64,000 bases of DNA from Methanogenium sp. (GTDB lineage Archaea; Halobacteriota; Methanomicrobia; Methanomicrobiales; Methanomicrobiaceae). Shown piece after piece: positions 24,190 to 28,018 of the stretch; position 1 is the first letter of the stretch; every line of letters begins with the position of its first letter. The DNA lies in the NCBI GenBank assembly GCA_030595665.1, contig JAUVCV010000002.1, forward strand, positions 1 through 64,000. The letters run 5' to 3'. Below the pieces are notes generated by a model. That model did no database searches. It was not told the DNA's origin and saw only the letters and a program-made list of their open reading frames with translations. A program made the translations under genes and the position numbers.

Positions 24190-25401
24190 ATGGAAGAAAA
24201 TATCGAGACCTATGAGGCTGTGATGATACGATATGGTGAGCTTTTTTTGAAGAGCGAATCTGTCATGAAATACTATATCAATATCCTGACAAATAATCTG
24301 GCCGCAGCGGTTAAAGCAGAAGGGCTGGAATGTTCAATTAAAACGCACAGGGAGAGAATTATCATAACAGGAGATGATCCGGAGAAGATTGCACAGGCTG
24401 CATCACGGGTCTTTGGCATTGTCGGAGTCAGCAGGTGCGTTATGACACCGCCGGACCGGGACATAATCGAAGAAACCGCTGCCCGGCTTGCAGCGGAAAA
24501 ACTTACTCCCGGCATGTCATTTGCGGTTCGTGCAAAACGGTCCGGCATGAAAGGGTTTACCAGCCGGGAACTGGGGGCCTCAACGGGCGCACGAATCATT
24601 GATCGGTGTCCCGGAATCCACGTTGATCTGACATCACCAGACTACGAGGTTTTTGCAGAGGCACGGGTGTTTGGAGGAATCGTCTATGACAGCCAGATAC
24701 CCGGCCCGGGAGGCCTCCCTCTCGGCACGCAGGGCAGGTTCCTCTCCCTCCTCTCTGCAGGAATTGACTCCCCTGTTGCTACATGGATGATGATGCGCCG
24801 CGGATGTGTCCCCGTATTTCTCCACTGCGATGGTGGCCGGTATGCCGGTGCAGACGTCCGAAGTACCGTAGATAAGAATCTGGCCACCATCTCTACATGG
24901 TGTCCGGAAAAAACGGTTCAGATGACAGTCATTCCCCTTGAACCGTTCTATGACGCGCTGATTGGTTCTGAAATACTCAAGACCCGCTGCATCCTCTGTA
25001 AACGTTTCATTCTCCGTGTTGCCGCAGAGTTTGCCAGGCAGGAAAATATGGCTGCCATCGTGATGGGTGACAATATCGGCCAGGTGGCAACACAGACTCT
25101 CGTAAACATCGGGGTCATACAGGAAGTAATGACGCCGTCCATACCTGTTCTCCGTCCCCTTCTGACCTACGACAAGGAAGAGATAATCCTTCGTGCCCGG
25201 ATGATCGGAACTTTCCGTGAAAATGCAGGTGACCTCGGGTGCACGGTCGTTCCCAAGCATCCCTCCATTGCAGCAGATTCTGAAGCGATACGCGCCGATG
25301 AATCACACATTGCATTCGAGGAATTGCTGACAGATGCCCTCTCCCATGCCACCATTGTTGAGGCACGGAACGGAGAAATCATTGAATATCCACCTCAGTA
25401 G
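24190..25401 (+). CDS. thiI: tRNA 4-thiouridine sulfurtransferase (ThiI)
   Basis: ThiI adenylates U8 of tRNA and replaces oxygen with sulfur; some relatives also serve thiazole synthesis. The 403-residue protein has an N-terminal ferredoxin-like domain, a THUMP RNA-binding domain (residues ~60-165) and a PP-loop ATPase with SAGIDSPVA at residues 189-197. The archaeal CKRF site follows (TRCILCKRFILR). There is no rhodanese domain, as in other methanogens, so the active cysteines must be in the PP-loop domain. Apparently monocistronic. Confidence 0.93.
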   Translation: MEENIETYEAVMIRYGELFLKSESVMKYYINILTNNLAAAVKAEGLECSIKTHRERIIITGDDPEKIAQAASRVFGIVGVSRCVMTPPDRDIIEETAARLAAEKLTPGMSFAVRAKRSGMKGFTSRELGASTGARIIDRCPGIHVDLTSPDYEVFAEARVFGGIVYDSQIPGPGGLPLGTQGRFLSLLSAGIDSPVATWMMMRRGCVPVFLHCDGGRYAGADVRSTVDKNLATISTWCPEKTVQMTVIPLEPFYDALIGSEILKTRCILCKRFILRVAAEFARQENMAAIVMGDNIGQVATQTLVNIGVIQEVMTPSIPVLRPLLTYDKEEIILRARMIGTFRENAGDLGCTVVPKHPSIAADSEAIRADESHIAFEELLTDALSHATIVEARNGEIIEYPPQ

Positions 25402-25786: not shown

Positions 25787-26965
25787 TCAGGAAACGTTAA
25801 GCTTATTTTCCCGGGCAATATCCTGAAACGCTTCACAGACAATACCAATCTGTGCGTCGGTCAGACCATAGGTATTATATTTCCAGACACGGGTTGAACC
25901 GGGGATAACGCCGATTATTCCGTTCTTTTTGAGGGAATGTGAAAGGAAATATCCCCGTTTTTTATGGATTTCAGCCACTTTGTTAAAGGAATCAACCGTA
26001 TTGATTCTCGTAAGCGTGTGCTCACGCGGCATATCGCTCTCCACCAGGGTGCCCTCGACAGCACAGAGTGCATCTGCCACGGTGTTGCTGTTTTTTACTT
26101 CGTGGTCCCAGTGAAGCACCCGCTCTTTTACGGCAGGGAAGGAGGCAACGAGGCCGACAGCCGTCACACCCATCAGCGTGCACCCCATCATCTCCACTTC
26201 CTTGATGCCAAATGTGCGGCCGGTGATATCACCTTTCACCTGCGTTGTCCGGAAGACAATGTCAGCGTACTCATCTGTTGTCGCAACAAGCCCCGATGGG
26301 GCAGGAGCGGCCATGCTCTTATGGCCTGAACCGATGACAAAGTCCACGCCCAGTGCTTTCCCGTCCACCGGCATGATACCAACACTGTATGCGCCGTTCA
26401 GGAGCACCGGGATGTCATACTGGTGTGCCACCTTTGCGATCCCTGCAACCTCGTGGATATTGCCATACTGGTAATCCACATGCTCCACAAAGAGAATGGA
26501 CGGTGTCTTCCCGGTTTCACGGGTGACATCCTCAATCCGTGCCGCAGCATTTTCAGCGGTGATATGATTATGTTCATCCTTTGGAATCTCATGAATATCA
26601 GCACCCGCCTGCTCCAGGGAAGCAAATTCCGTATAGTGTGAAAGGGCTGTTACAAGGGCAGGGTCTCCTTTCTCAACAATGGAACTTACCACTGCCTGAA
26701 ACCCGCGCCGGGCACCGGGGACCAGCCGAACCACATCCATATTCAGCCACTCCGCGCAGTCACGATGAAAATCTGCAATCGGCGGCTTATCGATATAATC
26801 CAGGCGGAATGGTTTCCGGCAGTTGTCACATACCGAATATCCGTCAGAATAGGCAATTGCTGCTTTCTGGGCATCAACAGTCAAACGACCGCCTGCCTGA
26901 ATGGGATCGATATTAATGTAGAGCTCTTCCACATCACGGGTATCGATATCAGCGGTGCATTTCAT
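25787..26965 (-). CDS. pscS: O-phosphoseryl-tRNA:Cys-tRNA synthase (SepCysS)
   Basis: SepCysS converts phosphoseryl-tRNA(Cys), made by SepRS, to Cys-tRNA(Cys) using PLP, the indirect route of cysteine coding in methanogens. The 392-residue protein has the PLP lysine K216 in GSGHKSMAAPAPSG. Three conserved cysteines are present: C46 and C49 (CDNC) and C262 (MMGCTLMG), matching those essential in the Archaeoglobus enzyme. GAGGAGGA is ~10 bases upstream of the ATG. The start shares one base with the stop (TGATG) of a 59-codon gene that looks like a truncated SepCysE scaffold. Confidence 0.95.
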   Translation of the reverse strand: MKCTADIDTRDVEELYINIDPIQAGGRLTVDAQKAAIAYSDGYSVCDNCRKPFRLDYIDKPPIADFHRDCAEWLNMDVVRLVPGARRGFQAVVSSIVEKGDPALVTALSHYTEFASLEQAGADIHEIPKDEHNHITAENAAARIEDVTRETGKTPSILFVEHVDYQYGNIHEVAGIAKVAHQYDIPVLLNGAYSVGIMPVDGKALGVDFVIGSGHKSMAAPAPSGLVATTDEYADIVFRTTQVKGDITGRTFGIKEVEMMGCTLMGVTAVGLVASFPAVKERVLHWDHEVKNSNTVADALCAVEGTLVESDMPREHTLTRINTVDSFNKVAEIHKKRGYFLSHSLKKNGIIGVIPGSTRVWKYNTYGLTDAQIGIVCEAFQDIARENKLNVS

Positions 26966-27144
26966 CAGCTCAGTTCCTCCTCAAGAATGGTCACCTGTTT
27001 TTTCAGTTTTTCAATCGCTTTTCCGGCACGAACCTTCTGTTCATCATCGAGTTCGTGGACAGGTGCTGTCTCCCGCAGAATAAACCGAATATCTGTGAGA
27101 AGATACAGCGCCTGAAACAGGGCATCCACCGCACGTCTTGACAT
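26965..27144 (-). CDS. Short SepCysE-like protein coupled to pscS, 59 aa
   Basis: ATG at 27144 opens a 59-codon frame starting MSRRAVDALFQALYLLTDI and ending VTILEEELS before TGA. Two amphipathic helices are joined by ETAPVHELDDEQ. Its stop overlaps the pscS start (TGATG), and its codon use matches the neighbours. Surveys of RNA-dependent cysteine synthesis report C-terminally truncated homologues of SepCysE, the scaffold joining SepRS and SepCysS, fused or genetically coupled to pscS. Size, helicity and position fit that description. Sequence homology to SepCysE itself was not verified here. Confidence 0.68.
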   Translation of the reverse strand: MSRRAVDALFQALYLLTDIRFILRETAPVHELDDEQKVRAGKAIEKLKKQVTILEEELS

Positions 27145-27330
27145 CTGCTAACCTGCTTATTCCTCTTTTTTTAATGCATAATAAACCAGACACAAAAAAT
27201 AAACCATTTTCTCCCGGCACCAGAGACAATGTGGATGCTACATACACCGAAGGGAGCGAGAGAAAGAAAAAGAGAATACATACCCTTAAGGAATATTTAC
27301 AGGTAATTATCCGGCAGGAGAAAATGTAAG

Positions 27331-27918
27331 ATGCGCACAGTTCAGATTCCTTCAATGCTTAGAGATCTCGTCTCTTCGGCGATTCTGTCAGTTGACGGCA
27401 TCACATTTACCCGTCTTGATGTCTGTCCATACTGTGGCGGGCCGGTGAAGGGGCATGACATCCGCCGAAAACGGTTTGCAACTGTCCGAAACAAAAACGG
27501 GAAACAGACGGTTTATGTGTTTGTTAAAAGATATCACTGCGAAAAATGTGAAAGACTATGTTATGCAGAGTCACCATTTTATCCGGATACACGATTAGGG
27601 ATGCCCATAGTTGACCTCTGTAACGCCCTGATTCAAAAGCACCCCTATCACCATGCCGCCCGTATTCTTGCAGCTCTTGAGATTGTGGTCGACAGAGGAA
27701 CACTCAGAAACTACGCACAGCGCTCGTTCCCCCTGCCTAATGTGATTGAGATGTATGGCGTGCCGATTCCCATTTCCATCCTTAACATAAATGAACTGTC
27801 ATACAAAGGAAACGAAAGCAGTTCCATCCCAGGGGCAGAACTATTCGGCGCCAGTGGGCTCCCACCCACAGCGCGGGCATATCTTCATACAATGGGGGAC
27901 GGCGGCAAACGGAATTAG
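27331..27918 (+). CDS. Transposase-like zinc-ribbon/HTH protein, possibly truncated
   Basis: A 195-residue ORF. Residues ~32-75 form a zinc ribbon (CPYCGGPVKGHD, then YHCEKCERLCYAESPFYP). A helix-turn-helix-like segment follows (LIQKHPYHHAARILAALEIVVDRGTLRNYAQ). This layout resembles the N-terminal DNA-binding part of certain archaeal transposases, but no DDE catalytic core follows. The last ~35 residues are low-quality sequence, and the stop lies 11 bases before a (GAA)9 tract. It may be a broken transposase gene or a domesticated DNA-binding protein. No terminal inverted repeats were found. Confidence 0.5.
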   Translation: MRTVQIPSMLRDLVSSAILSVDGITFTRLDVCPYCGGPVKGHDIRRKRFATVRNKNGKQTVYVFVKRYHCEKCERLCYAESPFYPDTRLGMPIVDLCNALIQKHPYHHAARILAALEIVVDRGTLRNYAQRSFPLPNVIEMYGVPIPISILNINELSYKGNESSSIPGAELFGASGLPPTARAYLHTMGDGGKRN

Positions 27919-27929
27919 CGGAAGAAATA

Positions 27930-27956
27930 GAAGAAGAAGAAGAAGAAGAAGAAGAA
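27930..27956. repeat. (GAA)9 trinucleotide microsatellite
   Basis: Nine uninterrupted GAA units, preceded by imperfect ones from 27921, lie between the zinc-ribbon ORF and mfnF. Such tracts are prone to slippage. The + strand frame that reads the tract as polyglutamate has no evident start. Confidence 0.9.
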
Positions 27957-28018
27957 CGGGTACCCCGCAATATAACACATCAGAGTAACTACAAGAGAGA
28001 CTTCAAGAAGAAGGAGAC

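Follow-up and report, generated by a model that had tools for sequence, protein, structure and literature searches.

In Methanocaldococcus jannaschii, the protein SepCysE comprises an N-helix (residues 1 to 24) that binds SepRS, an N-terminal domain (NTD; residues 35 to 101) that binds the SepCysS dimer, and a C-terminal domain (CTD; residues 111 to 213) that binds tRNA, and deletion of the N-helix abolishes SepRS binding in vitro (Chen 2017, PMC5688128). According to the literature, Archaeoglobi lack SepCysE, and archaea without selenocysteine often have the small protein SepCysSn in its place. SepCysSn was named by Mukai et al. (2017; PMC5424206) and was also treated in a 2022 paper (PMC8762117). 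Its physical binding to SepCysS is assumed in the literature, and our search of the accessible text of these two papers returned no biochemical assay of its role.

Here, we analyzed a 64,000-nucleotide stretch of Methanogenium sp. DNA (the window) in which a 59-codon gene directly precedes SepCysS. This gene is a new example of the already described SepCysSn. We conclude, with a probability of roughly 0.78, that its product serves SepCysS as a co-subunit whose translation is coupled to that of the enzyme, i.e., the “SepCysSn” of Mukai et al. The features of the locus are as follows.

25787..26965, minus strand: SepCysS (382 bits to TIGR02539, whose cut-off is 365; E = 1e-172 to NF006810)
26963..26967, minus strand: TGATG, in which the sepCysSn stop runs into the SepCysS start, one base being common to TGA and ATG (read from the sequence)
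26976..26982, minus strand: GAGGAGG, Shine-Dalgarno-like motif for SepCysS, inside the Leu-Glu-Glu-Glu-Leu codons of sepCysSn and 10 nt 5′ of the SepCysS ATG
26965..27144, minus strand: sepCysSn, encoding a 59-aa helical-hairpin protein, homologue of the SepCysS-binding N-terminal domain of SepCysE (ORF, homology, selection, and codon use)
27163..27191, minus strand: putative promoter region of the sepCysSn-SepCysS unit, AT-rich, upstream of sepCysSn and kept in three aligned Methanogenium sequences

A small gene under purifying selection

The sepCysSn ORF starts with ATG and encodes the product MSRRAVDALFQALYLLTDIRFILRETAPVHELDDEQKVRAGKAIEKLKKQVTILEEELS. Under a codon model trained on neighboring genes, it scored 31.5 bits versus a genic median of 18.9, and the remaining five frames over the same stretch scored −39 to 2.5 bits. 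The reading frame is open in all 74 distinct homologous genes, and the other frames are open in 3 to 22. Across these 74 genes, the median pairwise dN/dS is 0.26 (5 to 95% range, 0.09 to 0.48). Inside the genus, nearly all changes fall in third codon positions. R20, R24, and P28 are invariant. Purifying selection thus acts on sepCysSn, which is confirmed as a real gene; the open frame in relatives, the dN/dS value, and codon use rule out a chance ORF. An earlier note on this DNA, made from the letters alone, had placed and described the small gene correctly, and its remark that the codon use fits is borne out by these scores. Searches of the peptide against Pfam and NCBIfam yielded no fitting family model, and neither a second sepCysSn copy nor a full-length SepCysE NTD was found in the window’s own genome.

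The AT-rich segment upstream of sepCysSn is likely the promoter region of the two-gene unit, judging from its composition and conservation; a search for sigma-70 type promoters is uninformative for an archaeon. On the opposite strand, a divergent gene (27331-27918, plus strand) has a weak, below-cut-off match to DUF6431, and a run of AAG repeats lies near 27925-27957, after the end of that gene.

Homology to the SepCysS-binding domain of SepCysE

When the 59 residues were compared by phmmer with 177,635 PDB sequences, there were only two distinct matches, both to M. jannaschii SepCysE (MJ1481; E = 0.038 and 0.16). A profile built from 42 homologues placed MJ1481 at the top of the PDB matches (E = 0.001; next unrelated protein, 0.75) and aligned without gaps to its residues 52-95, across the hairpin. 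The peptide’s sequence match is limited to MJ1481 positions 50-95, within the NTD. The structure predicted from homologues is a two-helix hairpin (residues 3-24 and 34-58; mean pLDDT, 97.5), for which the first five of 350,542 PDB chains ranked by Foldseek were SepCysE chains that include the NTD (5x6b, 3wkr, and 3wks; probability, 1.00; TM, 0.74-0.76; identity, 26-34%). Each match alone is modest: the sequence similarity is weak when taken by itself (E values of 0.001-0.04), and hairpins of two helices are simple as folds go. The homology inferred from sequence and model is nevertheless secure, because sequence match, fold match, and the SepCysS neighbor agree.

SepCysSn corresponds to the middle part of SepCysE (the NTD) only. 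The C-terminal tRNA-binding domain is absent, as a stop codon follows residue 59 and SepCysS begins at once. The likeness to SepCysE that the earlier note had proposed, its description of two helices, and its view that the peptide is truncated at the C terminus relative to SepCysE all held up in these comparisons, including a profile search of the kind that it had named as a check.

Proposed SepRS docking

The same note had interpreted the peptide as a mini-scaffold that docks SepRS, i.e., one that bridges SepRS and SepCysS and channels Sep-tRNA(Cys). In favor of this reading, the homologous SepCysE is published as a bridging protein, and the sequence leaves room for the hairpin to contact SepRS in a nonhomologous way, by its free face. 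However, the frame is closed one codon 5′ of the ATG, and therefore no SepRS-binding N-helix is encoded; in M. jannaschii SepCysE, loss of that helix is sufficient to lose SepRS binding (PMC5688128). The SepRS side also differs. The M. jannaschii SepRS loops that grip the N-helix read ILDEF, FNGE, and ALVSN, whereas SepRS of the window’s genome has QTTPG, WDGE (preceded by a gap of five residues), and AACAG, closer to the loops of Archaeoglobus fulgidus SepRS (QTAVG, FEGE, and AAMRE). SepRS of M. maripaludis, which has SepCysE, retains the first loop as VMDEI and the third as AFVSN, and its middle loop is not clearly aligned. As these short motifs come from one organism and were read by eye from alignments, the loop comparison is supporting rather than decisive. 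Given the missing N-helix and the diverged SepRS loops, a SepRS-docking scaffold is not supported, and we regard it as unlikely.

Probable translational coupling with SepCysS

The product of 25787..26965 matches M. jannaschii and A. fulgidus SepCysS in the PDB (E = 3e-78). The arrangement seen in the window, in which the earlier note had recognized the TGATG overlap with the start of the SepCysS gene (pscS) and a genetic coupling of the two genes, is general among relatives. The sepCysSn stop overlaps the SepCysS start in 90 of 91 usable unfused loci (81 by four bases and 9 by one), and the remaining locus has a two-base gap; some of these loci represent one genome fetched twice, and one masked locus was excluded. 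A Shine-Dalgarno consensus match of at least 5 nt lies within the last 21 nt of sepCysSn in 62 of 75 distinct genes. Over 300 rounds of synonymous shuffling of the 3′ ends of these 75 genes, the average was 36 matches and the maximum was 47, and internal sepCysSn windows contained a match in 12% of cases. Because the real count exceeds that of every shuffle, codon choice at the 3′ end of sepCysSn is tuned beyond the protein sequence, and we infer that translation of sepCysSn and SepCysS is coupled.

The overlap and the embedded ribosome-binding site would also suit a leader ORF, whose translation supplies ribosomes to SepCysS and whose product matters little. Against this stand the strong amino acid conservation described above (the invariant R20, R24, and P28 and the dN/dS of 0.26), the SepCysE homology, and the retention of the domain in SepCysS fusions, where a leader role is impossible. 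The fused forms described below largely refute a mere leader, and we give this explanation almost no credence.

Distribution and fused forms

Of 100 related genomes, 94 contain SepCysSn. In an even sample of the phylum at a completeness of at least 90%, 75 of 76 Methanomicrobiales genomes have a match, one of them in the fused SepCysS form only. In nearly all, the peptide gene lies directly before SepCysS; conservation of the frame beside pscS in relatives, another check that the earlier note had named, was thus observed (frame open in 74/74).

Several irregular cases were recorded. Most members of one genus of the order have two short-frame SepCysSn copies per genome (10 two-copy genomes). 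The genome of Methanogenium cariaci JCM 10550, like another that matches it, has SepCysS split into two overlapping frames beside an intact SepCysSn; the broken SepCysS frame is either a draft error or a true frameshift. One typical Methanomicrobiales SepCysSn-SepCysS pair is on a probably misbinned contig whose record names an uncultured delta proteobacterium.

Weak matches to the peptide in frames of 465-534 codons of relatives could have been false, but these frames proved to encode SepCysS paralogues with an N-terminal SepCysSn domain. Such fused paralogues occur at 11 loci, and some genomes have both split and fused forms. Across the domain, the fused versions share 26-39% identity with the window peptide. 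A tree built from 86 SepCysS proteins has a fully supported branch that separates the split Methanomicrobiales form, to which the window’s protein belongs, from the fused proteins and the split genes of Bathyarchaeota and neighbors; two changes of the split/fused label are needed on this tree. The predicted structure of a fused protein contains the same hairpin (residues 3-25 and 32-54) followed by a low-confidence linker, so the model is silent on the position of the domain on SepCysS. That the domain is naturally fused to SepCysS points to SepCysS as the partner of SepCysSn.

The Cys-tRNA route and the proposed role of SepCysSn

The window’s genome encodes SepRS and, like its congeners, one SepCysS. 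Neither this genome (91% complete) nor any of four congeners, of which two are 99% complete, has a cysteinyl-tRNA synthetase (CysRS) match above the family cut-off. SepSecS and PSTK likewise had no match in the window’s genome, a result to be read with the same completeness in mind. The presence of SepRS together with the lack of CysRS, SepSecS, and PSTK matches agrees with the published pattern in which SepCysSn often replaces SepCysE in archaea without selenocysteine. SepRS-SepCysS appears to be the sole Cys-tRNA route in this organism, and the sepCysSn-SepCysS pair is therefore probably essential.

Under the favored co-subunit reading, sepCysSn would be translated in step with SepCysS, and two copies of the hairpin would bind the SepCysS dimer at its two-fold axis, by analogy with the NTD of M. 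jannaschii SepCysE. SepCysSn would then act as a small constitutive subunit that stabilizes or shapes SepCysS, without bridging to SepRS by the known route. The surface of the domain may have changed partners after separation from SepCysE.

Alternatively, the SepCysS-bound peptide could be an adaptor for a third partner that is not SepRS but, for example, a sulfur donor, tRNA, or the ribosome/EF-1A. The domain has been kept, separate or fused, across long evolutionary distances, and the A. fulgidus SepCysS chain (PDB 2e7i, 371 aa) has no room for it, so catalysis alone seems not to demand the domain. A gene for ThiI, which thiolates tRNA, lies convergently downstream. However, no specific partner is indicated, and the ThiI gene, being convergent, is outside the operon; we therefore consider recruitment of a third partner improbable. 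The ThiI gene itself (24190-25401, plus strand; THUMP and ThiI domains) is situated just past SepCysS, placing two tRNA-sulfur enzymes side by side.

Extending the co-subunit reading to all Methanomicrobiales, we tentatively raise a broader proposal, which we do not yet favor: SepCysS may be an obligate two-component enzyme throughout the order, and its small subunit may be a leftover of a dismantled transsulfursome that has acquired a new role. SepCysS binding would have been kept after loss of the SepRS- and tRNA-binding parts, and the new role would be SepCysS stability or recruitment of a different partner, in cells with no other Cys-tRNA route. If SepCysSn is an obligate subunit, assays of Methanomicrobiales SepCysS conducted in its absence would measure an incomplete enzyme, and the pair would be an example of the reduction of a three-protein tRNA-channeling complex. 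The gene is easily missed and has no family model, yet it is conserved beside the apparently sole Cys-tRNA-making enzyme of the genus.

Comparison with known systems

The earlier note had referred to published C-terminally truncated SepCysE homologues that are fused or genetically coupled with SepCysS, which is accurate as far as the accessible text of Mukai et al. (PMC5424206) extends. The window protein resembles the SepCysSn described there in its homology to the SepCysE NTD, in being encoded by a split gene directly before SepCysS rather than fused to it, in having no SepRS- or tRNA-binding part, and in its host, which lacks selenocysteine machinery. Relative to the accessible description, no structural difference was found. 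SepCysSn is nearly universal in Methanomicrobiales, an order that the accessible text of PMC5424206 and PMC8762117 does not name among the carriers.

The fused form, SepCysSN, has the same helical hairpin and the same presumed partner, and several relatives carry it in addition to another SepCysS; it differs in its covalent joining to SepCysS and in belonging to a separate SepCysS clade. SepCysE itself (MJ1481; 3wkr, 3wks, and 5x6b) is matched by the window’s 59 residues, in sequence and predicted fold, at its SepCysS-binding NTD. Unlike SepCysSn, SepCysE also has the SepRS-binding N-helix and a Toprim-like tRNA-binding C-domain, and it is found in selenocysteine-using archaea, whereas the window’s 91%-complete genome has no SepSecS or PSTK match.
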